A DNA stretch of 64,000 bases from Limnohabitans curvus (GTDB lineage: Bacteria > Pseudomonadota > Gammaproteobacteria > Burkholderiales > Burkholderiaceae_C). The DNA is taken from NCBI RefSeq assembly GCF_003063475.1, contig NZ_NESP01000002.1, positions 62,001 to 126,000 on the forward strand, given 5' to 3'. Each line of letters begins with the position of its first letter. Within the stretch, counting starts at the first letter, position 1. This document shows, one piece after another, positions 360 to 18,800 of this stretch. A program made the translations under genes and the position numbers. The notes beneath the pieces are model-generated. The model was given only the letters and a program-made list of their open reading frames with translations. It had not been told where the DNA came from and searched no databases.

Positions 360-360
360 G

Positions 361-1439: not shown

Positions 1440-1446
1440 AACGAAT

Positions 1447-1946: not shown

Positions 1947-1977
1947 CACCCTGCCCGGCGAGTGGCCGGACAGGGTG
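1947..1977 (-). terminator. Hairpin 3' of the operon end, no T-run
   Basis: CACCCTGCCCGGC and its near-complement form a ~13-bp stem with a short loop, starting 6 bases after the stop of the gene ending at 1983. There is no T-tract, so intrinsic termination would be weak; it may be an mRNA 3' stabiliser. Confidence 0.4.
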
Positions 1978-1982
1978 AGCCG

Positions 1983-2207: not shown

Positions 2208-2593
2208 CCCAACCTCGCTACATAACGGGCATAGTCGCTGCCCTGAGTATCAACAAAAAGAATGGGGCGGCCTGTGGCCACCGCCATCACGCAAGCCCGA
2301 GCGTCTGCGATGGGGAGCGCGTGACATTGGCCCTTGAGCCATTCGGTATCGCGGCAAAGGTTTCGAGCGAAGTCATCGAAACCGAGCGGGTCCATCTCGA
2401 TGCGCTTGAAGACATAGACCGTGGACAGTTCACCACCGGACATATCGCGCAAGTTAACGGCTTTGCGTGAAAACGGCAAAGGCGTTGGCAGCTTTTGCAT
2501 CACCACGTCCTGACCGTTAATCTTAAACGTGACTTGTTCAAATGCCAGGCGCAGCGTGATTGCCTCATTCGTTGCTTGAGCAAAGTAGGTCAT
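2204..2593 (-). CDS. Hypothetical protein (129 aa)
   Basis: This operon gene overlaps both neighbours by 4 bases (ATGA junctions at 2593 and 2207). It encodes a mixed alpha/beta soluble protein with no signal peptide or membrane helix. No family is recognised. The tight packing with the methyltransferase operon supports expression and a role in the same phage- or plasmid-like module. Confidence 0.6.
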   Translation of the reverse strand: MTYFAQATNEAITLRLAFEQVTFKINGQDVVMQKLPTPLPFSRKAVNLRDMSGGELSTVYVFKRIEMDPLGFDDFARNLCRDTEWLKGQCHALPIADARACVMAVATGRPILFVDTQGSDYARYVARLG

Positions 2594-2871
2594 GCCTTGC
2601 CCCCTTCGATTTCTTTTAGGACCTCGCGGCCCACTTCGGACAGGCTCACATCTCCCCGCGCAATGGCCTCTAGTTCATCGTTGCTGAACACTGAGACAAT
2701 GCGCGCAGCGCGAGCGTCAAGCGCTCGCTGTGCCATAACTGCCCACTGACGGTATGCAATGAGCGAGGCAAAGGCCTCCGTGTTGTTGCGCCCGTAGCCG
2801 CGGACGTAGTCGCCCACCTGGACGGCAAGTGTCTTCGGGTCAATGGCCCGACCTGGTGTTTTGTTAGTCAT
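2590..2871 (-). CDS. Hypothetical protein (93 aa)
   Basis: The start is ambiguous: an ATG at 2871 gives 93 residues beginning MTNKTPGRAIDPKTLAVQVG and overlaps the upstream gene by 8 bases; an ATG at 2898 would add 9 residues. The sequence is soluble and helical with a C-terminal acidic/lysine stretch. It ends in an ATGA overlap with the next gene. No family is recognised. Confidence 0.55.
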   Translation of the reverse strand: MTNKTPGRAIDPKTLAVQVGDYVRGYGRNNTEAFASLIAYRQWAVMAQRALDARAARIVSVFSNDELEAIARGDVSLSEVGREVLKEIEGGKA

Positions 2872-3286
2872 GGTCTGTGTCGCTTTCGTCTGTATCAATG
2901 GCGTATTTGCCGAAGGTCAAAACGCCGGCCTCTTTGGTGCAGGTCGTAGGACGCTCAAAGTCCACGATGCGCCCCAAGCGTTCGAGCGTTGAAAAGTCTG
3001 GGTGTTGTTGCGCTAGGGCTATCGGCGTCAAGCCGATAAGGCCAGCGTCTACGGGGTAGCTGTTGCCGTGCTGGTCGTTGTAAGTTCCATCGCCCCAGGC
3101 GGTGCCAAAGGCGAGCACTTGCGTTCCGTTGGCTTGGCCCACGGGTGAACCATCAAAGAAGTCACACGATTCAAGCAAGGGCATCCAGTACTCGTTAGGC
3201 ACTGCATAGCAAGGGTCGCCCAAGAAATAGGGGCCAGCGGGCACCGTGACGGTCCACGCTTTAGCGGTGACGGTCATGGTGTTCAT
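2864..3286 (-). CDS. Phage/plasmid-type conserved hypothetical (140 aa)
   Basis: The N-terminal part carries VPAGPYFLGDPCYAVP and later AFGTAWGDGTYNDQHG and VDAGLIGLTP, a pattern I associate with conserved hypotheticals of phages and mobile elements with unknown function. The start overlaps the methyltransferase stop by 4 bases (ATGA). The product is acidic, soluble and lacks a signal peptide. Its place directly behind a DNA methyltransferase suggests a mobile-element early or leading-region operon. Confidence 0.6.
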   Translation of the reverse strand: MNTMTVTAKAWTVTVPAGPYFLGDPCYAVPNEYWMPLLESCDFFDGSPVGQANGTQVLAFGTAWGDGTYNDQHGNSYPVDAGLIGLTPIALAQQHPDFSTLERLGRIVDFERPTTCTKEAGVLTFGKYAIDTDESDTDHD

Positions 3287-3987
3287 GCTGCGGCCTCCAT
3301 GCTTGAGGCGTTCGCGGCTTCGCGTTCAAAGTCCACGTATTCGCCTAAGCGTTTGGTGTAGCCCTGCATACGCTTGGTGGCCACTTCGTGAAACTGCGGG
3401 TCGAGTTCAATACCGAGATAGCGGCGTCCGATTGAGCGAGCAGCAATAAGCGTAGAGCCCGAGCCTGCGAAGGGGTCAAGCACCAAACCGCCACGGGGGC
3501 AAAACGATTCAATCAACGGAGTAAGTGAGGCCGTTCCCTTTTGGGTAGGGTGCAAGCGATTACCCGAGTAAGACCACTCAATAACATCGGCGATAGGGTG
3601 AACCGGGGGCTTTGGATTTCCCTTGGCCAACAGGTAAGCGCCCTCGTGCGAGTAGCGCATGAGGCGTGTGGTTGAGCTGTAACGTTTGGGGAAAGTGATG
3701 TGACCCACGATGCGAAAACCTGCGGATTTCCAAGCATCAAAAAAGAGGTCGGTTTTGTTCCAACCGTAGAAGCTGACGCAAAGGCTGTCGGCTTTGAGCA
3801 CTCGGAAAACCTGACGGAAGGCGGGTTTTAGCCAGTCGCTTTCAATGTCGTTTTTGATTGAGCGGCCTTCGCGGTCTTTGTAGCCGACAAGGTAAGGCGG
3901 GTCGGTCAACACAAAGTCAACGTGATTGGCGGGGACGGTTTTGAGGACTTCGATACAGTCGCCCAACAGGATGCTGTTAGCAGTCAT
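3283..3987 (-). CDS. DNA adenine/cytosine-N4 methyltransferase
   Basis: The 234-residue product has the catalytic motif DPPY at residues 29-32 and the AdoMet motif DPFAGSGST at about 170-180. Catalytic motif first and AdoMet motif last is the beta-class arrangement of N6-adenine / N4-cytosine methylases. A target-recognition stretch lies between them. There is no restriction endonuclease beside it, so it looks like an orphan methylase of a phage or plasmid, used for anti-restriction or regulation. It heads a five-gene operon with 4-8 base overlaps. The leader (TAGGAGA Shine-Dalgarno) is shared with the gene starting at 1439. Confidence 0.85.
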   Translation of the reverse strand: MTANSILLGDCIEVLKTVPANHVDFVLTDPPYLVGYKDREGRSIKNDIESDWLKPAFRQVFRVLKADSLCVSFYGWNKTDLFFDAWKSAGFRIVGHITFPKRYSSTTRLMRYSHEGAYLLAKGNPKPPVHPIADVIEWSYSGNRLHPTQKGTASLTPLIESFCPRGGLVLDPFAGSGSTLIAARSIGRRYLGIELDPQFHEVATKRMQGYTKRLGEYVDFEREAANASSMEAAA

Positions 3988-3993
3988 GGATTT

Positions 3994-4376
3994 TTCTCCT
4001 AGAGGTGTCGGCGGCGATGCCTTGCGGCTGTATCACCATGCGCCCCTGCCAACATCAACAAGTGAGCGCACGACCGAAGCAGCCCCCCAGAGGGCGAAGG
4101 GGCACAAATTCAATGCGTATAAATAGCAAGTGGGTCCCAACGGGACGACACGCGCGGCTTTATGCCGCATTGGGTTTGTGAGGCGCTGGGGACATGGCAA
4201 GGGGGAGGGCAGGCGTTTGGAAAAAATGGCTTGCCATTCAAACGAATGAACTTCACCGCAGTCATGACGCGACTTGTCGCCCCAGACGGACCCAACGGGG
4301 CCGACGCGCCGACCCTCGACAAATGGGGGGAAGATTCGGGCGTGCGCTCACTCCCCGCACGCCACAGACTTAAATG
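3994..4376. repeat. Conserved leader/repeat element, copy 2
   Basis: This non-coding block is the 5' region of the methyltransferase operon and is homologous to 1447-1845. Its terminal inverted repeats lie at 4062-4076 and 4337-4351 (GTGAGCGCACG core, 14 of 15 pairing). The internal hairpin at 4214-4244 keeps inner stem ATGG/CCAT and loop CTTG but has a different outer stem (CGTTTG/CAAACG). The outer-stem bases have changed on both sides relative to copy 1, so pairing is preserved. Confidence 0.65.
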
Positions 4377-4831
4377 TTTCAAGCGCGAATGAAGCGCGTC
4401 AACATTCCCGCACCAGGTGAAGCAAGGCGCAACACTGGTGCCACGATTCCGAACCAGCTGCGCGACAGCGCAAAGACGATGACAGCGAAGCCACTCAACA
4501 CCCGCTGAATGTCTTATCGCTCTGCGTGAGAAATTACCGAAGACGCCGAGAAAATATCGCAATGAACGAGAAACGACAAAGCCTCATCACCGAACGCGAT
4601 AATTTTTATCACCGTGTGCGATAACGAAAAAGGCCCCGAGGGGAGGGCAAGACGGAGATAACGACAGGCGACAGCACAGCGAATCACAAAGCCTGCGCGG
4701 CAAGCGCCCCTAGCGGCCTTGGCCGCTCTGATCGTCACTCTTGACCCGCCTTCGCGGGCACTGACATTGCCCATGAAGTTATCAAACAAACCTCTGGGCA
4801 AAAATGTGGATAAGTCGTCAATAAAAGCGAA
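4377..4831. promoter_or_regulatory. Intergenic region with TATCGC/GCGATA motifs
   Basis: No gene is supported here. TTATCGC at 4514-4520, TATCGC at 4555-4560, and GCGATAA at 4596-4602 and 4619-4625 form two opposed pairs in an otherwise GC-rich stretch, with an AT-rich gap between. This could be an operator cluster or protein-binding region. No promoter is asserted. Confidence 0.3.
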
Positions 4832-4853
4832 AACCCCTTGCTTCCAAGGGGTT
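4832..4853 (-). terminator. Rho-independent terminator
   Basis: A perfect 9-bp stem (AACCCCTTG / CAAGGGGTT) with a 4-base loop is followed on the minus strand by TTTTCGCTTTTATT. It lies 17 bases past the stop of the HTH gene ending at 4870 and closes that operon. Confidence 0.8.
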
Positions 4854-4869
4854 CGCGCTAGATTGCCTA

Positions 4870-5136
4870 TTAATTAGGCGGCCACTTTGTGCCGCGTTGG
4901 TAAGGCACAAGGTTGCCCGGAAGGGGCTCCACGCCCAGCTCTATGGCAGCACAGGCAAGCGCAGTGCGAAGATCAATAAAAACAGGGTTTGATTTAGCAA
5001 TCAACGAGCTGTATCCAGATCTGGACATGCCCAGGGCAGCGGCTGCATCGTCATAGGTGTACTCCATCCTTTTTTGCCACGCCCTCAATGCCTGAGGATC
5101 ACCCTCGTAGCGGAAATTGTTGTTAGCCTTAGACAC
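4870..5136 (-). CDS. Helix-turn-helix protein (88 aa)
   Basis: Residues about 28-50 (TYDDAAAALGMSRSGYSSLIAK) fit a Cro/XRE-like helix-turn-helix. The start overlaps the preceding gene by 8 bases. It is the last gene before the terminator at 4832-4853. It is probably a small DNA-binding regulator; the partner HTH gene upstream suggests a regulatory pair. No specific family is recognised. Confidence 0.55.
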   Translation of the reverse strand: MSKANNNFRYEGDPQALRAWQKRMEYTYDDAAAALGMSRSGYSSLIAKSNPVFIDLRTALACAAIELGVEPLPGNLVPYQRGTKWPPN

Positions 5137-5876: not shown

Positions 5877-6251
5877 TCACCCCTTCACCATCAATGCGCC
5901 GAGTGCGAGGTCTTGGTAGAAGCAAGCCATGATTTTTCGCCACAGCTCCACCGTCACAACCCGCTTTCCTTCAACCGACAAACCCTTAGCCACCAAATAA
6001 AGGGACTCTGCGTACTCGCGTGATTCGCGAGCAGCCTCTTCGGCTTCGGCGTAAGCGCGGCAAAAGGAGGCACGAGTCGCTCGCGACTCAGCCATTCTTT
6101 GAGCAACCGGAAGAAGACGAGCAGCCTTGGTTCTCATTTCTTCATTAACGACAAGCGCATGAGTCATCACACTGTTTGGAATGTGAACCGCCTCTACTTC
6201 GTAGACGCTGCCGTCCTCTGCGATTATTTGTTTTCGATCTCCGTGGCCCAT
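5877..6251 (-). CDS. Hypothetical protein (124 aa)
   Basis: This is a soluble, helix-rich protein with an alanine/glutamate-rich middle (AYAEAEEAARESREYAESLY) that may form a coiled coil. It ends 3 bases before the next gene starts. No family is recognised. Confidence 0.5.
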   Translation of the reverse strand: MGHGDRKQIIAEDGSVYEVEAVHIPNSVMTHALVVNEEMRTKAARLLPVAQRMAESRATRASFCRAYAEAEEAARESREYAESLYLVAKGLSVEGKRVVTVELWRKIMACFYQDLALGALMVKG

Positions 6252-6322
6252 GATTTCTCTAGGTAAGCGGCCAACATTTGGGCCATCCAGTAACCGACTG
6301 GCTCGGGCAGCACTAATTTCAT
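6224..6322 (-). CDS. Possible leader ORF (32 aa)
   Basis: A 32-codon frame (MKLVLPEPVGYWMAQMLAAY...) overlaps the start of the gene at 6251 in another frame. No good Shine-Dalgarno is seen. Its position at the head of the operon fits a leader peptide or short coupled gene, but it may be chance. Confidence 0.25.
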   Translation of the reverse strand: MKLVLPEPVGYWMAQMLAAYLEKSWATEIENK

Positions 6323-6410
6323 GATACTGATGCCATTTTAGTCCATTTATCGGACCAATCTACGAGGTGCCCTCACTCTTTTAATGTCGCACGTAAGAAC
6401 TAATCGGCAC

Positions 6411-6434
6411 AAAGTAAATAATTATATTTACTTT
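6411..6434. promoter_or_regulatory. AT-rich palindrome, probable operator
   Basis: The 10-base arms AAAGTAAATA and their exact complement flank a 4-base centre. It lies about 90 bases upstream of the minus-strand operon head and in front of the integrase fragment, where an operator for the operon's own HTH proteins would be expected. Confidence 0.4.
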
Positions 6435-6551
6435 CTGGCCAAATAATCCAGCCTTATCGTATATTTAATACTACTTCAGTACGACTCCAGAGGAAGCCTA
6501 TGAAAGTCCGTCCCGCGTTAGCCATGAGTATGTTCGCATGCTGTTTGATAA

Positions 6552-6785
6552 GCGCACGCGGAAGAGGCGGAGTCTCCGAAAACGGCTGAGAAGTTGCGCC
6601 GGGCAAGTCCCCACTGGATGAGGCACACCCACGCCACGCACGGGTTGGCGCGGGGAGCTGAATTAAACACGGTCAGAGACAACCTCCGCCATGCATCGGT
6701 GTCCACTACCTCGGTGTACCTGCACACCGATCAGGCCAAGCGGGCACGGCAAATGAGAGAGGCCTTCGGAACGCTAAACGGTTGA
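6552..6785 (+). pseudogene. Tyrosine recombinase, C-terminal remnant
   Basis: The open frame from the stop at 6549 to 6785 encodes only the catalytic tail of a phage-integrase-type recombinase: SPHWMRHTHATH (H-x-x-R box), LRHASVSTTSVYLH (second histidine and the nucleophilic tyrosine). The N-terminal domain and the first catalytic arginine are absent. The sequence just upstream encodes an unrelated signal-peptide-like start (6500-6589), so this is a truncated relic. It differs from the intact recombinase at 17010, so it marks a separate past integration. Confidence 0.8.
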
Positions 6786-6930
6786 TGTTCAGAACGAATT
6801 CGCCGTTCGTCACACGCCGCTCTACAGAGGCTTTACAAAGTGTCCGATTTTCGGGGCTTGGGCACATTTAGCCCATAAGGTGTTGTTGTCGGTCGAAACC
6901 TGGATGCAATGCTTCGAATGACCGAATGGT

Positions 6931-7524
6931 TTAGAAGCCATAGCTTGCTTCTGTAGATTTAGCCAAACTTTCAGCTATGTCACCACTAATACGGCATTGA
7001 GTGATGTTGATACATTTCGCATTGATCATTTCAAGCACTGCACTCTCGGGAGCGTTTTTGTAATTGATGCTCGCAACAAGTCTGCTGTCTTCTAGTAGAT
7101 GAATTGAGCCCCTCAACTTGGAAGAGATTTCGTTATCAAAGTCGAGAAACGTCTCCAGCAATGCCAAACAGCAATCTTGATGCATGCTTGTGAGTTCTTG
7201 CATGAACTCAGAAAACGCCGAGCCAATCTTTGTTTCGACGTTTGGAACAAGTGCGTAAGGAGGAAGCAACCCCTGATATAAATTTTGATTCAAGGCCGAA
7301 GATGGCACTACGATAAATCCATCGACCGGATCATCTGACTCAGATGCAAAAGCGAAATAGGACTCATCTGGGTTAATGACAACGCCAATGTGATCGACAA
7401 AGAATTTAATTGATTCAAGAAAATGTTGAAGTCGAGTTTCAATCAATCGGTATTCAACAAGGGATTTGGAAATCACTTCCGAGGGCAACAGAAGATGAAT
7501 CGTGTTTTGTGCGGGAGTGGTCAT
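6931..7524 (-). CDS. Hypothetical protein (197 aa)
   Basis: This is a soluble acidic protein without signal peptide or membrane helix, beginning MTTPAQNTIHLLLPSEV. No clear Shine-Dalgarno precedes the ATG and no family is recognised. It stands alone between an integrase stump and a umuC stump, in lower-GC sequence than the module at 8.2 kb. Confidence 0.5.
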   Translation of the reverse strand: MTTPAQNTIHLLLPSEVISKSLVEYRLIETRLQHFLESIKFFVDHIGVVINPDESYFAFASESDDPVDGFIVVPSSALNQNLYQGLLPPYALVPNVETKIGSAFSEFMQELTSMHQDCCLALLETFLDFDNEISSKLRGSIHLLEDSRLVASINYKNAPESAVLEMINAKCINITQCRISGDIAESLAKSTEASYGF

Positions 7525-7791
7525 TATTGCGCGCTGTTTGTCTAAGGTGAATTGTTTGCAAGCCAGACGATGCTACGGAAGCCTGAAAATTCAAGGTTTT
7601 CAATTTCTAAGAGTATGCGCATAAATGGTCACCTACACTTAAACGTACTAATTATCTTTATGCCACGCTTAACATTACCTTTTCCAAGCTTCAAAATCAG
7701 CGAGTGCAGTTCTGCAAATTCGTTGGGTGCTGTGTTTCCAAGTGAGTCTGATGGGAAGCCTGCACTTGCAGCGGCCTTAACATTTTCGCGG

Positions 7792-7990
7792 TCAAAATTC
7801 ACCTGTGCTGAGTTTGATAGTGCCGCGACCAAAGCGGCTGTTTAGTCCGTCAATGGCACGCATCAGCTTTGTGTCACTGGTCGTCACAGGCTCAAGTAAA
7901 TCAGCTTGCACAACACCAACGGGTGAAATGTCGCCCAGCTTGATGCCACCATGCAGGGTCTGTTTTGCAGCGCTTGCGGTCCATCGACTC
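7792..7990 (-). pseudogene. umuC: umuC-like Y-family polymerase, C-terminal remnant
   Basis: Minus-strand translation ends with SDTKLMRAIDGLNSRFGRGTIKL, preceded by GDISPVGVVQADLLEP. This is the extreme C-terminal signature of UmuC/ImpB-type error-prone polymerases (DUF4113 region). No catalytic domain is present; upstream the frame degenerates. Plasmids and integrative elements of this host group often carry umuDC, so this is a decayed copy at the left border of the GC-rich module. Confidence 0.7.
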
Positions 7991-8194
7991 GACCAACTCA
8001 GAGACCAGAAGCCGACGCTCAGCGTTGAAGGTGATCTGCGAGCGGCGACATTGCGCGAGGACTTGGCGATCCAGCGCCAGTTGTCCAGAGGCTTTTCGCC
8101 GGAAGCGGCTTCCAGACGCTCAGGCGTAATCTGTTGTTAGCAACAATTTGCTACTATCTTCCCAAAAAGGGCGGACACCGCCATACGGAGGTAT

Positions 8195-9952
8195 ATGGCT
8201 GTGCCTGTATTCATCAGTGACGTCGAGCATGTTCTTGCTTTGCGGGGTCTGGAGACTCCCGATTTGGCGATGCTCCAGGCAACGCATCAGAGCTACCGTG
8301 CGCTGCTTCTTCAGCCGTCGGGGCCCATCTTCGCAGACACCAAGCGGATTGGCCACCTAGACCTGGCTGCCGCCGCCATCCGGGCGGACAGCTTCCTTGC
8401 AATGGCTGCGGAGCGCGGCGACCAGCTTGTGGTCACACCTGAGTACTTCCTTCCGGTTAGTTCGCTGGCGAAGGCGGCGCAGGGTGGGCCCTTCCCCGCT
8501 GAGGGCGCTATCTGGGTGCTTGGGTGCGAAAGCATGACGCCCGTTCAGCTCGCCAGCTTCAAGGAGGAGTGCGCCGGGCATTGCGTCGTCATCTACGAAG
8601 AGGACCCGACTCCGGCAGTTCAGGGCAACTACTTCGACCCTGTCGCCTACTGCTTCGTAACCCGGGCCGCCGACAAGAACTTCAAGCGGGTCGTCTTGTT
8701 CCAGTTCAAGACCGCGCCGTCACGCGACGATCATGGCTTTGAGAACAAGCAATTGCGCTGCGGCCGCGCCATTTACCGGTTCCAGGGCAAAGACGGCTAC
8801 ATCAAGCTTTCGACAATCATCTGCTCGGACGCGCTGGACCTTGGTGAGGACGCTGATGCGAACAAGAAGTTATCGGACAGAACCGTTCTCATCCATATCC
8901 AGCTGAACCCGAAGCCCAAGCACACAGACTACCGGCGGTACCGCAATGAGGTTTTCCGGCGCACTCCGGGCGCGACCGACTGCGACATCATCTGCTTAAA
9001 CTGGGCTCACAACGTCGTCCAACACGACTCGCCTGCCCTCGCAAACGCCTGGAAAAACGAGAGCGGTTCTGCGTGGTATGTGCCCGAGCGTCGCTGCTCA
9101 GTGAAGGATGACGAGGTTGCCAACAATGAGGCCAAGGGCCTGTACTACACCTGGCATGAGAAGCGGCGCCACGTCTTGCACTTCCACTACGATGAGGCCG
9201 TTTTCGCGCTGATTGTTCCCAAAGTCATGCAGGATGGCCCGGCGGTCCATGACGTGCTCATCGGGCCACAGCTAGATGCGCGCTTCGCCTGGGACGTCGA
9301 CGCTGATGCATGGTTGGCAAGCACGAGCTGTCCGGAAACCGGGTGGAGCGACGTCATCAACGCCAACCCTGAAGTCACCGCAGCGTTCCAAAACCTGCAG
9401 AACATCGCGAAGCGGCTGCACATCGAGCGGGCCATCTCGCTTTCATGTGGTCCTCACAGCATGAAGGACCAATGGCACCGCGTGGACAACCTAGACGTGT
9501 GCCGAATCCCAGAGTCTGAAGTCGTAGCCCGTGCCACCCTTCATCTTGACCGCGACGTCGCAGCCTCCGAGGAACGTCATAAACGCATAACCCGCGTTGC
9601 GATCTTGGGACACATCCTTCAGACGGAGACATTGCCCCCGCAAATCAAGGACCTTGCCGGTGGCGATGCCTCGATAACGTGGTCTCCCGACTCTCCCAAC
9701 ACCAATGTCATCAAGTTTGGTGCGCGTCCCGCACTGGTAGCCTACCTCGGCGATAACCCGCCGATGGATTTAGTCAAGCGTATTGGCGAGAACGCGTTCG
9801 AGCTCCTGCGAAAAGAAAACAAGGGCCACAAAGACCGCGTGGCCATCTGCTATCGCACGGTCGCTGGCGTCACGAAGTTCGCCGACATCAAGCAGCAGAC
9901 TGACATTACATACGATGGAAGCAGCATGGCGTCCATCACAGGGGGCCAGTGA
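8195..9952 (+). CDS. Nitrilase-fold protein, first gene of ATPase module
   Basis: The 585-residue product has a carbon-nitrogen-hydrolase-like N-terminal half with a plausible Glu-Lys-Cys triad: E83 in VVTPEYF, K172 in LFQFKTAPS and C210 in TIICSDAL, with the usual spacing and local motifs. The C-terminal ~280 residues are unassigned and could bind a partner or target. The annotated ATG has GGAGG only 3 bases upstream, so the GTG at 8201 (9 bases from it) may be the true start. The next gene begins 1 base after its stop, so the two are coupled. Base composition is clearly more GC-rich than the flanks, indicating transfer. Nitrilase domains occur as effectors in some anti-phage proteins, such as the RT-nitrilase of DRT type 1. 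The substrate is unknown. Confidence 0.75.
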   Translation: MAVPVFISDVEHVLALRGLETPDLAMLQATHQSYRALLLQPSGPIFADTKRIGHLDLAAAAIRADSFLAMAAERGDQLVVTPEYFLPVSSLAKAAQGGPFPAEGAIWVLGCESMTPVQLASFKEECAGHCVVIYEEDPTPAVQGNYFDPVAYCFVTRAADKNFKRVVLFQFKTAPSRDDHGFENKQLRCGRAIYRFQGKDGYIKLSTIICSDALDLGEDADANKKLSDRTVLIHIQLNPKPKHTDYRRYRNEVFRRTPGATDCDIICLNWAHNVVQHDSPALANAWKNESGSAWYVPERRCSVKDDEVANNEAKGLYYTWHEKRRHVLHFHYDEAVFALIVPKVMQDGPAVHDVLIGPQLDARFAWDVDADAWLASTSCPETGWSDVINANPEVTAAFQNLQNIAKRLHIERAISLSCGPHSMKDQWHRVDNLDVCRIPESEVVARATLHLDRDVAASEERHKRITRVAILGHILQTETLPPQIKDLAGGDASITWSPDSPNTNVIKFGARPALVAYLGDNPPMDLVKRIGENAFELLRKENKGHKDRVAICYRTVAGVTKFADIKQQTDITYDGSSMASITGGQ

Positions 9953-9953
9953 C

Positions 9954-12900
9954 ATGCCTGAAATGCAAGCTTCGCGTAAAGCGCTGTCTCACCTTCTGGT
10001 TGGGCTTCATGACGTCGACGATTCGGTCGTGCGTGGTGAGAAGAAGCTGGGTGAGCAGACCTACGCTGTTGCCTACGTGGACTTCGCTGATGAAGTGGTG
10101 GAGCGCTCACTCCACCTGCGCGACTTCCAGGAACGCATCCTCGCTGACGACTTCTTTGACGCACCAGGCGACTTGCGCTGGAACAAGTACCTCTACATCG
10201 TCGCTGGCCCCAACTCAAAGTCGAACCCTCAATTTGCTGCTGCAAAGGCTGCAATCGAGGCTGACAAGGACTACGCGCGTAAGCGTGTCATCTCGCAGGA
10301 CGACCTCGAATCCCTGCTGGGAGGGCCAAAGCTATTCGAGGCAGCGGAGCACGGCAGCACATATGACGTGCTAACGGACTGGCGGCAACGACTGTCAGCG
10401 GCTGGGCTCGAGCTATTGCTCGACGCACCTACCCCTCGCACTACCGTGGTGGAGAAGATTTCCCAGCGTGCAGCAGGCGCGGCTTCTAACGGGAAGCAGC
10501 AGGTGAAGGAGCTGAACGCCTCCGACATGCCGCTGGCAATGGCAAAGCTGCGCAGCCTGAACATTGCTGCGTTCCGGCCGATACACAACGGAAAGAGCTA
10601 TGACTTCGGTGACGTCACGCTGCTCATAGGCGCGAACGGAAGCGGGAAAACATCTCTGCTCGAGGCTGTCGAGTATTTCTACTGCGGAAACAACCGCAGA
10701 AGCACTGCTGTTGGGCCAGTTCGTCTCAAAGGAAAGCTGCAGCCAAGCGCGGGCGGAAGCCTCGTCGAACTCTCATCCACAGCAGATGGTCCTCGCATCA
10801 AGGCTCGAAATCTTGCTTGGTACAACCGCAAGGAGTACAACGTTGCTGACATCGTTGACAGCTTCTCGCTCTACAACTTCCTCGACACCGATGCCGCATA
10901 TCGCCTGTCCGGCAACCTGAAGCCGGATGACATCACGAATGAGTTGAGCCGCTTGTTGGTGGGCTCGTCAGTTGCTACGACGTTCGACTACTTGCAAAAG
11001 ATTCGCGCCGACATCGACAAGGCCTGGGACAAGGCTCAGCGCCGCGCCGATGGGCTGCAGGCGGAGCTGACCGTTTTCGAGCGGCGGCTGAAGGAGCTTC
11101 AAGCCAAGCCCTCCACGGCGAAAACACTGACGGACGCGTATCGCGCCGCGCTTGCAGGCCTCGGTTGGCAGAGGCTAGTTGAGGCTGGCGTGCCCACGCC
11201 GAAGGAAGGTCGGGGGCTTCTCGCCGCGCTGGCACACGTGCAAGCGTTGATCTCCCTTGGGGGCGCAGCGCGAACCATCAAGGATGTCGAGCATCGCTCG
11301 GCGCAACTGGAAGCTGCAGTCAGCAATGCAAAGCCAGTAAACAGGCAGCTCGTTGAGACCATCGAGCATGAGAAGCGACTCGTCTCGAAGATGGAGGCCC
11401 TTGAATCCAACGTCAAAAACTTGGACCGGTGGATTGCGTATGAGTCCGCGGGTTTTCATGACGTGCGCCGGCGATACAAGTCGGCCCGCGAAGTCTCGGA
11501 ACAGCTGGCCACACGCCTTGGAGGTCTGGTCGCCGGCGATCTGCCCGAGGTGCCGCCGCAGTACGCCACTCTTCAACTGCAAGCCGCCGAGCAGGCTGCT
11601 TGCGAAGCAGCCACTGCTGCCCACGCGAGGTTCACCCGCGCTCAGCAAGCCCTAGACCTTCACGGCAAGGTCGCGTCGGCCCGCGCTGCTGCGGCCGCGA
11701 AGCTGAAAGACGCGGCGAAGGAAGCGCTCAAGTCGTCGGAGAGCGCGGACGTGTGCCCGGTCTGCCGCACGGTGCATGCCAGCGGCGCGTTGATGCACCT
11801 CATCGAGGAGCTCACCTCAGGGCCGCAGACCACCGAGGAGGTCAAGGGACTTGCGGAGTCTCTACGCCTGGCGGGGGATGAGGCGAGCGAGGCACGGCGA
11901 TGGGCCGATGCTGTTGAACTCAGTCAGAAGTTTGCAGCGCAGTTGCAGCTGAAGGGGACCACGGCCCAGGAGATCCTTGAAGAACTGGTTGGACTGCGCG
12001 AGCGGGCCAATCAAGCGCAGCTGGAGCTGCAGCGCGTCAAAAGGGAAGGGCAGGACCTTGGCAACGCGGGCTTCTCCAGCAACGAAGCCGATTTGGTGTG
12101 GGACCGAATCGCTGGGCTATTCGAGCTCGAATCACGCAATCTCACCGCCGACATTGCGTCGGGCGAGCGGCGGTGTCAGTCGGACGCAGTGGAAGAGACG
12201 CGAAAGGCTTTGGGTGAGTGCCGCAGCAACATGGGAGGTTTTGTTGAATCCATCCGGGGCTTCGCGCGGTCTGTCGTCGTTGACGGCTGGGTGACGCGCG
12301 TCGAGCCAAGCGGCACCTTCGCGTCGCTTGTTGCGCTGCAAGACGAGTTCCTTGCTGCTACAACCAATGCTGCTGGGCTTCGTTCCTACCTTGCTGTCGA
12401 CGACGATAATCCGCTCGTCGAGGTTCAGGCACGCATCGCAGCCGTGGCCTCCGCGTTCAAGCACGCTGACGAAGCGTCGCGTAGCGATTCGGAGAGATCG
12501 GCAGAGCAGCGGGACCTGCCGAAGAAGATTCAGGACTGGAATCTCAGCCTAGGGAAGCATCGCAGCGAGGAGAGGGCGCTCCTAGAAGCCGGCAAGGTAT
12601 TGGATGACCTCATTGAAAACGCTTCTCTGGAGAACGCAACGAGGGAGGCGCTTGATGCCATCGGTGACCAAATCAATGAAGTGTTCTCGCGCATCCACTC
12701 GCCGCGAGAGTACGAGTACGTCGGTAACCCGAGTGTTCTTCTTCGGACCGCGGATGGTCATGACCCCCGCACGCTGGACCAGGTCAGCACCGGGCAGCGC
12801 GCAGCATTTGCTTTGTCCATTTTCCTTGCCAGGAATCGAACGGCCGAGTCGGCGCCTCCGGTCCTGCTCATCGACGACCCTATCGCGCACATCGACGACC

Positions 12901-13091
12901 TCAACGCGCTGTCTTTCCTTGACTACCTGCGCGACTTGGCTGTGAACTCGGGTCGGCAAATCTTCTTTGCCACCGCAGACACACGAGTGGCATCTCTGTT
13001 TTCAAAGAAGTTCAGCTTCCTGGGAGAGTCCTTTAAGACCATCAGTCTGGTGCGCAGCCCGCAGGTTGAGCAAGCCGCTGCGGCAGGCTGA
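9954..13091 (+). CDS. SMC/Rad50-like ATPase with zinc-hook motif
   Basis: The 1045-residue product has an N-terminal domain of about 190 residues (WNKYLYIVAGP ... EADKDYARKRVIS), reminiscent of the middle-component domains of ABC three-component conflict systems. An ABC ATPase follows: Walker A GANGSGKT at 226-233, long coiled coils broken by CPVC at 601-604 (zinc-hook-like), signature STGQRAAFALS near 945-955, Walker B LLIDDP at 971-976 and a D-loop-like AHIDDLNALSFLD. Longer frames start upstream inside gene 1; I chose the ATG 1 base after the gene 1 stop. It is probably a DNA- or damage-sensing ATPase controlling the nitrilase-like partner. It could also be a repair ATPase. Confidence 0.8.
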   Translation: MPEMQASRKALSHLLVGLHDVDDSVVRGEKKLGEQTYAVAYVDFADEVVERSLHLRDFQERILADDFFDAPGDLRWNKYLYIVAGPNSKSNPQFAAAKAAIEADKDYARKRVISQDDLESLLGGPKLFEAAEHGSTYDVLTDWRQRLSAAGLELLLDAPTPRTTVVEKISQRAAGAASNGKQQVKELNASDMPLAMAKLRSLNIAAFRPIHNGKSYDFGDVTLLIGANGSGKTSLLEAVEYFYCGNNRRSTAVGPVRLKGKLQPSAGGSLVELSSTADGPRIKARNLAWYNRKEYNVADIVDSFSLYNFLDTDAAYRLSGNLKPDDITNELSRLLVGSSVATTFDYLQKIRADIDKAWDKAQRRADGLQAELTVFERRLKELQAKPSTAKTLTDAYRAALAGLGWQRLVEAGVPTPKEGRGLLAALAHVQALISLGGAARTIKDVEHRSAQLEAAVSNAKPVNRQLVETIEHEKRLVSKMEALESNVKNLDRWIAYESAGFHDVRRRYKSAREVSEQLATRLGGLVAGDLPEVPPQYATLQLQAAEQAACEAATAAHARFTRAQQALDLHGKVASARAAAAAKLKDAAKEALKSSESADVCPVCRTVHASGALMHLIEELTSGPQTTEEVKGLAESLRLAGDEASEARRWADAVELSQKFAAQLQLKGTTAQEILEELVGLRERANQAQLELQRVKREGQDLGNAGFSSNEADLVWDRIAGLFELESRNLTADIASGERRCQSDAVEETRKALGECRSNMGGFVESIRGFARSVVVDGWVTRVEPSGTFASLVALQDEFLAATTNAAGLRSYLAVDDDNPLVEVQARIAAVASAFKHADEASRSDSERSAEQRDLPKKIQDWNLSLGKHRSEERALLEAGKVLDDLIENASLENATREALDAIGDQINEVFSRIHSPREYEYVGNPSVLLRTADGHDPRTLDQVSTGQRAAFALSIFLARNRTAESAPPVLLIDDPIAHIDDLNALSFLDYLRDLAVNSGRQIFFATADTRVASLFSKKFSFLGESFKTISLVRSPQVEQAAAAG

Positions 13092-13107
13092 CGCCCTTTG
13101 CGGGGCG
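13092..13107 (+). terminator. Short hairpin after the module
   Basis: A 5-bp GC stem (CGCCC/GGGCG, 6-base loop) starts right after the stop of the ATPase gene. No T-run follows, so it is a weak terminator candidate only. Confidence 0.3.
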
Positions 13108-13440
13108 CGTTGCTAGACGCAGCGCAGTGCAAGGCCGCGGCTGGGCGTCAAGATAGTTCGGCGGTGCTATCGGAGGTGCCGGGTCCGCGCGTGAAGGTTG
13201 TTGATTTCTTTCACCGTCCAGCTGTGTGCGCAAGGGCAAAGGCGTCAATAAGCCGGAGTCCTCGCTCGCGTTCGTCAGGGCTCAGTTGTCGAGCAATGAG
13301 GTGCCAGCAAGCAGTCTCTGGTGAACTTCCGCTACCAGCCTGTAAGTCAGTCGTGATTATTGAAATGTGTATGCAGAACTCAGACCCATTGCTACCTTAA
13401 GTCTTGCTGCATGCGTTAGGACTCATGGGCGGCACCTAAC

Positions 13441-13458
13441 GGGGTGCAAAAGCACCCC
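13441..13458. terminator. 7-bp stem, AAAA loop
   Basis: GGGGTGC and GCACCCC pair around AAAA, followed by TTAAACGTTCCTTTGTTTT on the plus strand. It may end plus-strand transcripts from the nitrilase/ATPase module; the T-tract is imperfect. Confidence 0.4.
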
Positions 13459-13544
13459 TTAAACGTTCCTTTGTTTTGACCTTTCAACCATTAGTGGTTT
13501 CAACAAACGGTTGAAAAACTTCACGTATGTGATATTATTCGGCT

Positions 13545-13620
13545 GTTGCCCTTAGAGGCCATTGTGTATTTTCCCCTTGAGGGACCCGCGAAGCCCAGCT
13601 ATGCTGGGCTTTCGCCTTTC
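13545..13620 (+). ncRNA. Candidate small RNA (~75 nt)
   Basis: A sigma70-like promoter (TTGAAA at 13511, 16-base spacer, TATTAT at 13533) points at a short ORF-less stretch that ends in a strong hairpin (AGCCCAGC 13592-13599 paired with GCTGGGCT 13603-13610) followed by TTCGCCTTTCT. It converges on the MazF-like toxin gene, ending at its 3' end. The promoter and terminator are seen; the transcript is inferred. The hairpin alone could simply serve the toxin mRNA. Confidence 0.35.
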
Positions 13621-13624
13621 TAGC

Positions 13625-14083
13625 TTAGGTGTTTATAGCAGGCAGCAAACTAGCTGCGCTGATGGCCTTGATAACGGCCCGCTGAATCTTGTCAACACTC
13701 TCAAACGGAATTTTTGTCTCGTCGCGACCGTGGTTCGTTCTAGGACGGTTAAGTCGCAGCCTGCTGACTTGTTGCACCATGTCGGCTTTCGCCCATCGGA
13801 CGCTTTGCACAAAGTATTTCAACTCTGGTATTTCGCCCTCCGGTATTTCGACGTGCCAGCCTTTGTGTGTCTTTTGTAGATCGTGTGTTGTTGATAACGG
13901 AACCACCAAGCACGAAGTACCAGACACTTTTCCATTCAGCACGACCACCAGGCGGTTTTTAATCATTTCTGGCGGTATGTGGTGATCGGGCGCATTGGTC
14001 GGCTGGCCATTGGCGTCGAGTGTGTATTCACCGAAATTGCACTCAAGGACTTGCCCGACTTTAGGGCTGAAATTAATTGGCAT
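13625..14083 (-). CDS. PemK/MazF-family toxin-like protein
   Basis: The 152-residue product has the hallmarks of the PemK/MazF fold: RLVVVLNGKVSGTSCLVVPLST in the core strands and a later YFVQSVRWAKADMVQQVSRLRL segment. The family cleaves mRNA. It is longer than classical MazF (about 110 residues), with an N-terminal GQVLECNF...DHHIPPEMIKNR entry typical of this subfamily. The HTH gene ending 8 bases upstream would be its regulator or antitoxin, although it is not a classical MazE. Confidence 0.7.
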   Translation of the reverse strand: MPINFSPKVGQVLECNFGEYTLDANGQPTNAPDHHIPPEMIKNRLVVVLNGKVSGTSCLVVPLSTTHDLQKTHKGWHVEIPEGEIPELKYFVQSVRWAKADMVQQVSRLRLNRPRTNHGRDETKIPFESVDKIQRAVIKAISAASLLPAINT

Positions 14084-14091
14084 GTGTCACT

Positions 14092-14481
14092 TTAGAGTGT
14101 TGAGTTTTTTTCGAGCCAGGCTACGACAGTTTCAAATGTCCAGCGAGGACTTCGACCAATACGAACATCCGGCAGAGGAAATTCAATTTTCCCCTCTGCC
14201 ATGTTCAACGCCCCATCACTTAGTGCAGCACCCAAAGCGCCAATGCCCCCTGACGCGTCAGATAGGCCTATTCCAACTGTGCGCTGAAATCCTGTAGTTG
14301 TTGGTAATGGAAGACCTTGACGAGCTATAGCGCCTAGACCCCCCTCTGTCCGTGTTGAGGAATTTCTCACCCAGCGGTCAAATGTTGTGCGCGAAACACC
14401 CAGACGGCCACAGATATCCTCGGCTGTGAGTAGTTGAATCTCGCCAGCCACTATTTTTGAGTAAAGTTCATTAGCCACCAT
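14092..14481 (-). CDS. HTH regulator paired with MazF-like toxin
   Basis: The N-terminal residues 15-40 (LLTAEDICGRLGVSRTTFDRWVRN) form a helix-turn-helix. The C-terminus (LPDVRIGRSPRWTFETVVAWLEKN) resembles AlpA/excisionase-type DNA-binding proteins. GGAGG lies 4 bases upstream of the ATG. The gene ends 8 bases before the toxin gene. It is probably an autoregulator, and perhaps the antitoxin; the palindrome at 14496-14511 overlapping the leader would be its operator. Confidence 0.6.
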   Translation of the reverse strand: MVANELYSKIVAGEIQLLTAEDICGRLGVSRTTFDRWVRNSSTRTEGGLGAIARQGLPLPTTTGFQRTVGIGLSDASGGIGALGAALSDGALNMAEGKIEFPLPDVRIGRSPRWTFETVVAWLEKNSTL

Positions 14482-14495
14482 TAGCCTCCAAAATG

Positions 14496-14511
14496 ACCAC
14501 TTTAATGTGGT
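14496..14511. promoter_or_regulatory. Palindrome ACCAC-N6-GTGGT
   Basis: It sits 15-30 bases upstream of the HTH gene start. Related half-sites (TTTAAATGAG, TTTAATGG) follow up to 14545. It is a likely autoregulatory operator in an AT-rich promoter region. Confidence 0.45.
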
Positions 14512-14573
14512 TTAAATGAGTATAAATGGAGTTTAATGGTTTTTTTGGTGAAATTCAACTAGATCAAGAATTT

Positions 14574-14985
14574 TTATTTCAGCTTCGCCTCGATCTGTTT
14601 GAAAACGTCACGCCCTTCATCGTCTTTCGCGACGGCCATCAAGAATAGGCAGCGACCCCGGCTGGCTTTCTCCCATTGGTGGCCGATTTGATCTTTCTCG
14701 CGTGAATCGTCGTTGGTCTTGAGGTTTGCGCCTTTGTATTCAACGACAAGAAAGCGACCATCGTTCAGCTCGGCAACGAAGTCGGAATAAAAGTAGTCCG
14801 TCGAAGTTGGCAACCAGAACGAGAACTTCGGCTGACGTTCAATGTTGCGAACCCAATGCTTGACGGCTGTATGTGCGTCAATCGCTTGGGCGCATAGAAA
14901 CTCTTCTGCGGGGCGTCCATCTTTCGTCTTCTCATTCAACTCATGGATGACCGGGCACCCGTGTAACTGGCTACACATTCGCCAC
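14574..14985 (-). pseudogene. Type III restriction Res subunit, C-terminal remnant
   Basis: The frame encodes the end of a Res/helicase-nuclease subunit: FWLPTSTDYFYSDFVAELNDGRFLVVEYKG, a PD-(D/E)XK nuclease motif (D...E-x-K), then EKDQIGHQWEKASRGRCLFLMAV. The helicase domains are missing; upstream of about 14985 the DNA switches to an unrelated NHL fragment on the other strand. It is therefore a broken relic of a phage-defence gene. The exact junction cannot be fixed by eye. Confidence 0.7.
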
Positions 14986-15268
14986 CCCAACTTTCGTCGG
15001 CGGACTGACAAGCGCCGCGAATGGTGACATTTACTTCACTGACTCTCTGCGCGCCAAAACATATAAGTTCTTGGAAAACTCTATCCAGATGAGCACCGCA
15101 TCACCCTTCATCACAGCGCAAATTGCAGGAACGTCTTCGTCCGGCTCATCAGATGGCCCCGCAAGCACCGCCAAGTTTGCATTCCCACTCACTGGTATCG
15201 CCATAGGAACAAACGGAACCGTTTTTACTTCTGACAGCAGCAACCGAAAGATCCGAACCATTCGCTAA
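14985..15268 (+). pseudogene. NHL-repeat protein, C-terminal fragment
   Basis: The plus-strand frame reads GLTSAANGDIYFTDS ... GIAIGTNGTVFTSDSSNRKIRTI, two blades of an NHL beta-propeller. No start codon or signal peptide precedes it, and it begins where the restriction-gene remnant ends. It is similar in style to the propeller of the lipoprotein at 53455 but not the same sequence. Confidence 0.6.
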
Positions 15269-15286
15269 TCAAACAAGAGGCGTCAA

Positions 15287-15622
15287 ATGAAAAATCGAAT
15301 CATGAACTTCCTAGGCAATCTCCACGGCGTCGAACACATCCCACAACAAATGGTTTCCGGTCACCCCTCCTGCATGCTGATTTCATCAGGGCAAATTTTC
15401 TCCCTACCTCCGGGTCATGAATCTTGGGGGGCAGAAGATTTTGATTCGTTTGCAGTCGGATTGGGAACGCCCAACGCATTTACTTTGCGAGCAAGCAAGG
15501 TCATACGGTTACTGCTTACAGAACATGCCCGCCTAGTTTCAGCAGACTTAGGGACCAGCATCGCCCAAGAATTTAAAGATATAAAAAAACATCTAGAAGT
15601 TAAGACTGGGTATGCCCTATGA
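15287..15622 (+). CDS. Hypothetical protein (111 aa)
   Basis: It begins 18 bases after the NHL fragment with a modest GAGGCG ribosome-binding site. It is a soluble protein without recognised motifs (MKNRIMNFLGNLHGVEHIPQQM...). It may once have been co-transcribed with the NHL gene. Confidence 0.45.
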   Translation: MKNRIMNFLGNLHGVEHIPQQMVSGHPSCMLISSGQIFSLPPGHESWGAEDFDSFAVGLGTPNAFTLRASKVIRLLLTEHARLVSADLGTSIAQEFKDIKKHLEVKTGYAL

Positions 15623-15642
15623 CCGCTCCATCGACCAAAGGC

Positions 15643-15885
15643 CTACTTACCACTCTTCGTCCGGTTATCCAGCCGACAAAGCATTTGGCAGTTTTCGATG
15701 GTTGTCTTTCCACCCTTACTCCAAGGGATGATGTGATCTGCCTCCATTTCGCCAATCGCATAATTCTTTTCACATGCAGGGCAAACGCCCTTTTGGCGCT
15801 CATAGTTAACCATCTGAACGATTTGCTTTGCGGCCTTGTTTGGGTTTTTGGGTTTTTGGGTTTTATTGGCAAAATTTTCAACATC
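15643..15885 (-). pseudogene. HNH endonuclease domain, remnant
   Basis: An 80-codon frame with no start codon lies between two stops. It contains CPACEKNYAIGEMEADHIIP, then WSKGGKTTIENCQMLC and NRTKSGK. This is the C-terminal HNH nuclease of DUF262/GmrSD-like proteins: the D-H dyad, N and the CxxC zinc ligand are all present. The DUF262 part is missing, so it is a fragment of a second restriction-type gene near the type III relic. Confidence 0.65.
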
Positions 15886-15975
15886 CTACAAGGTTTAGCT
15901 CTTGGAACAGCCTCGCAGACTAAGCGCAATCGCCAAATTGAACGGCCACGCTTACACGCGTCTCACCCCATCCAC

Positions 15976-16551
15976 TCACGCGTCCTTTCTCTTGAATGTC
16001 CAGGTCATCATGCAAGGAGCAGAGGGATGTCGTTTGTCAAAGCTCAGCCCAACAGACTGCCCTCCAAACCGAGCAATCGGGTGGTCAGGTGTAGGAGGCA
16101 CATCGATCCTTACGCTATCGGAGTAGGCAGTTGTCTGTAGGGGCCTGCCGCGCTGGCCGTTCTGAATAGGGGCCAGGGTCTGAAAGTACGTCTGAAGCAC
16201 GCTTTCACACTTTCCCATCGCAAAGCCAGTCATTTCAACCATTTCCCCGCGCTCATTTTCCTTGTAGCTGAAGGAGTCAAACCACTCACCAAGCCGCAGC
16301 CGCTTATCCACCACCCATAACCCAGGACCAACTTTTGTGACAACCGATTCACCATAGGTACGCTTAAGTGTTTCGACGGTGATGGGTGTTTCTGCGTAGA
16401 CCAAAAGCGGGCCATCTGCTGGTGAAGGCTGCGCCAACACAGAGCGGCAAAGCGCGGCGGAGAGCAAGGCACACAAAAATAAGCTGCGATTAATGACTGA
16501 TGGCAAAACAGGCTCCAGACGGGCAAAAATTTGGTTTCCGTAGGGTTCCAC
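15976..16551 (-). CDS. Secreted hypothetical protein (191 aa)
   Basis: A hydrophobic segment around residues 22-40 (RSLFLCALLSAALCRSVLA) followed by QPSPADG looks like a signal peptide with an AxA-type cleavage site. An internal start is possible. The mature part contains WVVDKRLRLGEWFDSFSY and two cysteines. No family is recognised; it is probably periplasmic. Confidence 0.5.
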   Translation of the reverse strand: MEPYGNQIFARLEPVLPSVINRSLFLCALLSAALCRSVLAQPSPADGPLLVYAETPITVETLKRTYGESVVTKVGPGLWVVDKRLRLGEWFDSFSYKENERGEMVEMTGFAMGKCESVLQTYFQTLAPIQNGQRGRPLQTTAYSDSVRIDVPPTPDHPIARFGGQSVGLSFDKRHPSAPCMMTWTFKRKDA

Positions 16552-17009: not shown

Positions 17010-18800
17010 GTGTCGATCGTTCATAAAACCGCATGGAGACTGGCTTTGGCACAAAACAGCGACGTCATATTCAAAGCCCAGACATACACAAGGGCCGACT
17101 TCACCGCCTTGCGCGCATGGGTTCAGCGCATTCCAATTGAACGCATCGAGAGGATTTACTACACCGATGACGCACCGCAAATACGTTTCGGACTCGAGAA
17201 ATTCCTGACACGCATGAGGCATGACCTCATAGAACGCGCCATCGTCTGTAATCCATTTCTCGCGGAAGGACTTGCGCGCGCGCGAACCGGCGGCGCTATC
17301 ACCGTAGGAATCCTAGACACGCTAGTCAAAGCGGCAGACGCAAGACCCAGCCGCCCAGTGCCAAGCGATCGAGTCGCTCAATGGTTCCGCCCCGGCACCG
17401 CAAAGGTCCTGCTCGGGGAGAGCCTTCGAACACTCGCAGACTTGAAGCTATTCATAGAGCAACGAGGCCCAACCTGGTGGCGCCCCGTTCCTAGAATTGG
17501 CGAGCAGCGCGCACGAGTCATCGAACGATGGCTAAACAAGAACGAAGACACAGCCATCGCCCCTCACACGCAGCTGACAATCGCTGAAGATGACATCCAC
17601 CAAAGTCACAAAAGTGAGCTCACAACAAGCCCCCTCCCCCTTGAGCGAATCGCCACCCTGCCCTCCAATCTGGACGGACATGATGGACGCAATCGGGCGA
17701 ACGCGTTTTGCTTCATTCGTGCCAGAAATGACCTAGAGGCTGTCCACGCATATCTCGGGAAATTCCGCCACCAAGCCCACACATTCAGAGCCTACCAACG
17801 AGAACTCGAACGGCTCGTTCTTTGGTGTGTATTAGTCAGGAAAACCGCCCTCTCCTCAATGCTCGTCGACGACTGCGAAGCCTACAAGGACTTCATCGCC
17901 AACCCAGACCCAGCACTTGTCGGGCCGCGCCAGGGGCGCTTCACCGCTCGCTGGAAGCCCTTTGCAGGCCAACTTTCCCCCAATTCCCAAAAGCAAGCCA
18001 TACAGATTATTCGAACAGCTTTCGTCTGGCTTGTGAACGTCCGCTACTTGGGCGGCAATCCTTGGATAGCCGTTCGTGACCCATCCACAGAACAAGCACT
18101 ACTCCCGATGCAAATCGACAGGGCCCTCCCCTCCTCCCTATGGGAAAAGACAATTGCTCATCTGAACGATTTATGCGCGGATCAATTTGCCAGCCAGCTG
18201 CGAACCGCCAGGGCGGCGATTCTTTTAATGGGTGAATCCGGCCTTCGTCGAAGTGAAGCAGCGAGAGCCTTGTCCAGCAAACTTCGACCGACCGATAACC
18301 CTGAGCTTTGGAGACTGGATGTGCTCGGAAAACGAAGCAAATGGCGAATGGTCCCAGTTAGCTTGCGGACATATGAAGCAATACAAGCGCACTGGGATGA
18401 TCTAGACAACCATGGACTCCCCTCCCCCGCGAGTACGCCCGAATCAAGCTCACCCATTCTTCGTCCGCTTCGAATCCCAAGAACACCAATAGCCCAAGAG
18501 AGACATAAAGACGGATCTATTGGGTACAGCATTGGCGGCCTTGCCACACTTGTGGTTTCGACCCTTGGAAAAATCGCAGACTCGGGTCACTTCTCGCCCC
18601 AAGAAATCATCAAGCTGAAACAAACAAGCGCCCATGCTTTTAGACACACTTTTGGGACGACGACCATCGCCCAGGGGCTTCCTCACGACGTACTTCAAAA
18701 AATTCTTGGGCACGTCAGTTTGGCCACCACATCCATTTATGTACAAGCGGAACAGAAGAGAATTTTGGACGAGTCCTCCAAAGTATTTGAAGCTCGCTAA
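17010..18800 (+). CDS. Tyrosine recombinase, large plasmid type
   Basis: The 596-residue protein has an N-terminal region (about 1-200) resembling DUF3701 seen in large betaproteobacterial phage-type integrases, then a SAM-like core-binding domain and a catalytic domain: MGESGLRRSEAARAL (first Arg), HAFRHTFGTT (H-x-x-R) and LGHVSLATTSIYV (His and nucleophile Tyr). All catalytic residues appear intact. The start is GTG at 17010; a TTG at 17043 is an alternative. With the dif-like palindrome just upstream it probably resolves plasmid multimers. Confidence 0.85.
   Translation: MSIVHKTAWRLALAQNSDVIFKAQTYTRADFTALRAWVQRIPIERIERIYYTDDAPQIRFGLEKFLTRMRHDLIERAIVCNPFLAEGLARARTGGAITVGILDTLVKAADARPSRPVPSDRVAQWFRPGTAKVLLGESLRTLADLKLFIEQRGPTWWRPVPRIGEQRARVIERWLNKNEDTAIAPHTQLTIAEDDIHQSHKSELTTSPLPLERIATLPSNLDGHDGRNRANAFCFIRARNDLEAVHAYLGKFRHQAHTFRAYQRELERLVLWCVLVRKTALSSMLVDDCEAYKDFIANPDPALVGPRQGRFTARWKPFAGQLSPNSQKQAIQIIRTAFVWLVNVRYLGGNPWIAVRDPSTEQALLPMQIDRALPSSLWEKTIAHLNDLCADQFASQLRTARAAILLMGESGLRRSEAARALSSKLRPTDNPELWRLDVLGKRSKWRMVPVSLRTYEAIQAHWDDLDNHGLPSPASTPESSSPILRPLRIPRTPIAQERHKDGSIGYSIGGLATLVVSTLGKIADSGHFSPQEIIKLKQTSAHAFRHTFGTTTIAQGLPHDVLQKILGHVSLATTSIYVQAEQKRILDESSKVFEAR

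Follow-up and report, generated by a model that had tools for sequence, protein, structure and literature searches.

A nitrilase-fold protein paired with a Rad50/SMC-like ATPase in Limnohabitans curvus, a probable two-gene variant of the Lamassu/ABC-three-component superfamily

The 64,000-nucleotide stretch of Limnohabitans curvus DNA considered here (assembly GCF_003063475.1, contig NZ_NESP01000002.1, positions 62,001 to 126,000; referred to as the window, in whose numbering positions are given) lies on a contig of 159,509 bp in a genome totaling 3.03 Mb in two contigs. It carries two genes, together called the pair, that encode a nitrilase-fold protein and a Rad50/SMC-like ATPase; as described in an initial annotation made from the sequence, they form two open reading frames (ORFs) at 8195-9952 and 9954-13091, with the stop codon of gene 1 at 9950-9952 and the ATG of gene 2 at 9954, leaving a gap of one base. 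The pair is probably a member of the superfamily into which Lamassu, ABC-three-component (ABC-3C) and DdmABC systems were joined in 2023, according to the accessible text of the review concerned (PMC10586767). Its features are the following.

8187..8191, + strand: GGAGG, Shine-Dalgarno-like, upstream of gene 1 (read directly)
8195..9952, + strand: gene 1, candidate effector in the LmuA position (ORF, 585 aa)
8441..8443, + strand: codon of E83, proposed catalytic Glu (invariant in 21/21; soon after model strand 78-80)
8708..8710, + strand: codon of K172, proposed catalytic Lys (invariant in 21/21; immediately after model strand 163-171)
8741..8743, + strand: codon of E183, candidate second Glu of the catalytic tetrad (invariant in 21/21)
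8822..8824, + strand: codon of C210, proposed nucleophile (CSD invariant in 21/21)
9954..13091, + strand: gene 2, LmuB-like Rad50/SMC ATPase with an N-terminal middle-component-like domain (ORF, 1045 aa; PADLOC LmuB)
9954..10541, + strand: residues 1-196, N-terminal domain similar to ABC-3C Middle Component 1, in one chain with the ATPase (PF20289, hhalign)
10626..10661, + strand: Walker A region IGANGSGKTSLL, residues 225-236 (gene 2 alignment)
11754..11765, + strand: CPVC zinc-hook-like motif, residues 601-604 (CPxC in 20/20)
12780..12806, + strand: ABC signature QVSTGQRAA, residues 943-951 (gene 2 alignment)
12855..12905, + strand: Walker B/D-loop PPVLLIDDPIAHIDDLN, residues 968-984 (Asp at the usual catalytic Glu position)

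The gene 1 product is predicted to adopt a four-layer nitrilase fold, based on a structure model and its Foldseek matches, and its nitrilase (C-N hydrolase) domain comprises residues ~28-351. The nitrilase fold and the Glu83-Lys172-Cys210 triad had both been proposed in the initial annotation; the fold is borne out by the model, and the three residues are invariant across an alignment of 21 sequences, the window included. E183 is equally invariant, and its role as the second Glu is assumed from the residue spacing of amidases of the nitrilase superfamily. In the model, C210 follows strand 204-209 and precedes helix 212-216, an arrangement like that of a nucleophile elbow. The remaining C-terminal tail (~352-585) is conserved and, as the domain reaches ~351, spans ~235 residues, not the 280 first assigned to it. 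No Pfam family was matched by gene 1 at E <= 1.

For gene 2, the best PADLOC model is LmuB, with E values of 9.4e-33 in the window (112 bits), 2.5e-30 in Polaromonas and 5e-28 in one haloarchaeon. The Walker A and B motifs, ABC signature and mid-coil CPVC reported earlier are all present; each is kept, the last as CPxC, in 20/20 aligned gene 2 sequences (the window plus 19, with loci L015 and L020 omitted as incomplete). Directly after the Walker B Asp, 17 of these 20 have a second Asp and the three haloarchaeal sequences a Glu; Gln occurs there in none. By its sequence matches, gene 2 is classed as a Lamassu/ABC-3C-like ATPase.

The N-terminal domain of gene 2, which had been called unusual and given ~190 residues, is about 196 residues long and is not without relatives, as it matches ABC-3C Middle Component 1 (MC1; MComp1, PF20289). 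In an alignment of the window and 16 bacterial relatives, PF20289 was matched at E <= 0.1 in 17/17 sequences (best E 7.6e-6), and the only other Pfam family appeared in one of the 17 members at E 0.095. Comparison by hhalign with two standalone MC1 proteins gave 66.8% and E 5e-5, with a common W-N-x-Y ... I-E-x-D ... R-K stretch, and W76 and N77 are retained in the haloarchaeal versions by alignment. On this profile evidence, the domain is taken as middle-component-like.

Relatives were drawn from plasmid records (tblastn), a genome-contig scan using patterns from three sequences, and whole-genome searches, so that all counts are lower bounds. The contig scan gave at least 17 loci, which we take from their record titles to be Beta- and Gammaproteobacteria; gene 2 directly follows gene 1 in 16 of them, and L015 ends at the contig edge. 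Both genes also occur in four plasmid loci, namely Polaromonas pPNAP01, Natrarchaeobaculum, Natronorubrum and the halophilic archaeon DL31, the last two having been found via gene 2. A Rad50/SMC-like ATPase gene therefore adjoins gene 1 in 20/20 loci with a readable neighbor, haloarchaea included, which answers the earlier proposal that the two should co-occur. Gene 2 matched 20 plasmid records; among the nine examined, four carry the nitrilase pair and five match the C-terminal head only. In whole-genome searches, gene 1 was found in its own genome only among 369 genomes of the class, and among 399 of the order in its own, in one clear match (probably the genome of L004) and in one doubtful match (E 9e-4). 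Phage records did not encode gene 1 at E <= 0.01, and a scan of viral contigs for close relatives was also empty. The pair is thus rare and patchy, scattered among bacteria and salt-loving archaea. In L020 (Pseudomonas sp. TH41, 11740-14358), gene 2 ends early after ~870 residues while gene 1 is still open, and that copy is probably decaying.

Both genes are under purifying selection, with dN/dS values of 0.09-0.23 in comparisons with the nine closest relatives. DNA similarity to these relatives spans the pair and extends past it by no more than ~230 bp on the upstream side and ~250 bp on the downstream; the pair therefore seems, on sequence comparison, to travel as a single cassette. The conserved 3' flank (window 13092-13342; L007 14892-15157; L010 5224-5490) contains a decayed remnant whose motif resembles that of a tyrosine recombinase, most evident in L007. 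This suggests that an integrase formerly adjoined the pair.

Within 7 kb of the relatives, 129 ORFs of 200-1300 aa were listed, 117 of which were scanned as a set (10 from L002 and L003 and two others being left out). PADLOC returned 135 families for the set, 25 of them among the matches listed, a tally of families and not of ORFs; scanned singly, six of 20 of these ORFs had a strong match. Defense genes, whose presence beside the pair had been anticipated, do accompany several relatives: Hachiman and an AbiJ-like gene in L002, type I restriction-modification in L018, HerA with SIR2 in L019, a mad8-like gene in L010, and an E1-E2/JAB protein in L017 (Paraburkholderia). At 15194-18959 of L017, a three-gene Lamassu with a CTD7 (C-terminal domain 7) effector, MC3 and LmuB begins ~300 bp past the downstream end of the nitrilase pair, and by their sequence assignments two Lamassu types lie there side by side. 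These neighborhoods may represent defense islands. The only families matching more than one of the 117 ORFs at E <= 1e-8 were integrase domains, BPD_transp_1 and GntR; as no other family is repeated, no pathway recurs. Upstream of the haloarchaeal pair in L003 (1-7698), annotations list two DEAD/DEAH helicases, an RNase H-like protein and a tyrosyl-DNA phosphodiesterase, possibly another defense cluster.

The pair's own surroundings were described earlier as an integrase/umuC graveyard upstream and toxin and restriction remains downstream. The latter are present: Pfam places a PemK/MazF-like gene at 13625-14083 (E 1e-7), and PADLOC identifies 14574-15011 as the C-terminal fragment of a type III restriction gene (E 4e-58; residues 765-892 of an 898-residue profile). 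Upstream, the integrase part holds, as a scrap lies at 6573-6767 (tblastn E 9e-7); umuC was not confirmed, since E. coli UmuC and UmuD queries found no match in window 1-30000 at E <= 1. A tyrosine-recombinase gene with a DUF3701 domain stands as an open frame at 17010-18800, across the pair from the scrap of a relative at 6573-6767, and a DNA methylase gene (N6_N4_Mtase, Pfam E 8e-30) is found upstream at 3283-3987. The pair is indeed GC-rich relative to the adjacent kilobases (0.57-0.64 vs 0.45-0.51 for 6001-8000 and 0.48-0.53 for 13001-16000); window 1-5000 itself has a GC content of 0.54-0.59, almost matching the pair, and the contrast is therefore local. Profile searches located genes for ParA- and ParB-like proteins at 20-22 kb of the window along with a weak Rep3-like gene, suggesting by gene content that the contig carrying the pair is a plasmid.

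The pair is intact and conserved, and its role is probably defensive. A sensor ATPase controlling a nitrilase effector, as in the initial annotation, is the best reading because the two genes are conserved together, the predicted fold and the catalytic residues are upheld, and defense genes neighbor several of the relatives. The candidacy as a new defense system overstates the case: the pair is called a variant because protein 2 is Lamassu/ABC-3C-like and a C-N hydrolase effector is already in print for that superfamily. In full, the pair is considered likely to be a two-gene Lamassu/ABC-three-component member, with an LmuB-like sensor to which the middle component is fused and a nitrilase as effector.

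Several results weigh against this assignment. The window's own PF20289 score is 17.8 bits, below the Pfam cut-off of 27.3, and MComp1 is absent from the Pfam matches of the three haloarchaeal versions. A PF20289 search of 398 genomes of the phylum gave nine with matches, in open frames of 185-348 aa, and overlooked the window's own fused domain at E <= 0.001; it is therefore no measure of how rare the fusion is. The ATPase-head tree (18 sequences, 233 columns) has key supports of only 44-79%, so that placement is not settled. In the PADLOC library, which presumably contains LmuA models, gene 1 matched none of these at E <= 0.1, its sole match being RTasNitrilase (E 0.013); its tail has no Pfam CTD docking family, and hhalign against two SIR2 effectors gave 0.1%, no match. 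Among the 20 neighbor ORFs scanned singly, 14 had no strong defense match. Finally, Mre11/SbcD phosphatases, which have another four-layer fold and are the natural partners of Rad50, appear in the Foldseek list for gene 1 below the nitrilases, starting at rank 34 with E values no better than 0.02.

These Mre11/SbcD rows would fit a DNA-repair pair, in which a Rad50/SbcC-like ATPase and a nitrilase-fold partner replacing Mre11 serve repair or plasmid maintenance instead of immunity. The Rad50-like heads and hook agree with this, as do the ParA/ParB-like genes on the contig and all seven solved-structure sequence matches of gene 2 at E <= 0.01, five being Rad50 and two SMC. It is nevertheless judged unlikely, as LmuB scores 112 bits, while the NCBIfam models Rad50 (28 bits) and RecF (58 bits) fall far short of their curated cut-offs; the MC1-like domain is present; and the gene is rare, occurring in its own genome only among 369 of the class. 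In addition, nitrilases are not known to cut DNA. Still less probable is a metabolic or detoxification cassette, in which a nitrilase accompanied by an auxiliary ATPase would have spread among pollutant-degrading Betaproteobacteria on plasmids and islands: the nitrilase residues are intact and some hosts are presumably degraders, to go by names such as Polaromonas naphthalenivorans, but the Rad50/SMC-like ATPase stays beside gene 1 in all 20 readable loci, haloarchaea included (the L020 copy being shortened), no pathway recurs among the 117 neighbor ORFs, and some neighbors are defense systems. The slimmest chance goes to a stability module of toxin-antitoxin type, with gene 2 constitutively restraining a toxic gene 1 and no sensing of invaders. 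Tight gene coupling and location on four plasmid records and the window's plasmid-like contig speak for it; against it are a large ATPase with all ABC motifs kept in 20/20, costly for a simple antitoxin, and relatives on contigs of up to 2.96 Mb.

For the Lamassu-type pair, a working mechanism can be drawn by analogy with the named families, which is why its functional steps are inferred, the anatomy alone having been established here. Gene 2 would probably dimerize through its CPxC hook, and the tail of gene 1 probably docks the nitrilase to the sensor; in the resting state this tail and the MC1-like domain may keep the nitrilase inactive there. Clamping of phage or plasmid DNA ends, or of their replication intermediates, by the ATP-bound heads would release the nitrilases or cluster them into an active oligomer that hydrolyzes an essential amide- or amine-bearing metabolite; the output would be abortive infection, halting the cell before the invader spreads. 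Taken jointly, a defense role, DNA-end sensing, docking, activation by oligomerization and metabolite depletion have about an even chance of being correct. More tentatively, the pair may be an undescribed Lamassu subtype that combines a single-chain sensor (middle component and SMC) with a nitrilase depleting a core amide metabolite, e.g., glutamine or an NAD-pathway compound. If so, it would be a second, independent immune use of nitrilases beside DRT1, in a system common to Proteobacteria and haloarchaea and overlooked by current catalogs. That PADLOC detects LmuB here and the effector only as a weak DRT nitrilase match suggests that catalogs can overlook variants. A two-gene Lamassu with a single-chain sensor would also be a simpler object for studying the switch from SMC-like sensor to effector, as well as the nitrilase substrate.

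In comparing the pair to known systems, members of the nitrilase superfamily (Nit2, the glutaminase domain of NAD+ synthetase, amidases) share the predicted fold and the Glu-Lys-Glu-Cys residues; the window protein differs in its lack of a Pfam family, its extra ~235-residue tail and its ATPase partner. SbcCD and Mre11-Rad50 have similar heads and a CPxC hook, whereas the partner in the window and 20 other loci is a nitrilase and not Mre11, and gene 2 has an extra N-terminal domain. DRT1 (RT-nitrilase, UG class 3) is the other nitrilase-based defense known to us. It likewise uses a nitrilase domain as abortive effector, and the weak PADLOC match (E 0.013) falls at the Lys/Cys region; unlike the window nitrilase, partnered by an SMC-like ATPase, DRT1 is a single protein with a reverse transcriptase, a domain that Pfam did not find in the pair (no family in gene 1, none among 15 gene 2 rows). 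In the accessible text of one report, the DRT1 nitrilase requires oligomerization and its substrate is left open (PMC13275509).

The MC1-type ABC-3C operons share the PF20289 middle-component family and a similar C-terminal head (23-28% identity). A Rhizobium operon encodes SIR2, an MC1-like protein (26.2 bits, also just under the cut-off) and the ATPase; that of Shewanella pS19501 encodes MBL, protease-CTD4, MC1 and the ATPase; and an Enterococcus faecium plasmid operon has the Shewanella gene order by annotation, with the ATPase in two pieces. In L023, an IS21 element splits the gene between SIR2 and the ATPase. Unlike in the window, MC1 is there a separate gene of 176-200 aa, and the role of effector falls either to SIR2 or to a CTD4 protease together with an MBL nuclease.

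With Lamassu, ABC-3C and DdmABC as a whole, the pair shares an SMC/Rad50-like LmuB with a hook; an effector gene placed upstream, whose product has its enzyme domain at the N-terminus and a tail at the C-terminus; a domain resembling the middle component; a patchy spread; and other defense genes beside several relatives. A literature search returned no paper pairing ABC-3C with a nitrilase, and among the matches listed only the 2023 review, in its accessible text, names both Lamassu and C-N hydrolase (PMC10586767). As described there, LmuA effectors have variable N-terminal enzymes, with "C-N hydrolase" among those listed; the middle component LmuC is absent from some systems; and the SMC-like LmuB, of ~650 aa, has a zinc hook in many cases but not all, with the Walker B catalytic Glu generally replaced by Gln (PMC10586767). 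Lamassu effectors are activated by oligomerization upon infection sensing, as stated in the accessible part of a further paper (PMC12799240). Against this background, the pair departs from Lamassu in its longer ATPase (984-1045 aa across pairs), in Asp (Glu in haloarchaea) after the Walker B Asp in place of the general Gln, and in a nitrilase effector lacking a PADLOC LmuA match, with a tail lacking a Pfam CTD match. It consists of two genes and not three, the MC1-like domain being fused to the SMC, where a separate gene is usual in Lamassu and ABC-3C but not defining. The superfamily and a C-N hydrolase effector within it are already known (PMC10586767), and what is distinctive here is the middle component fused to the SMC together with the nitrilase effector.
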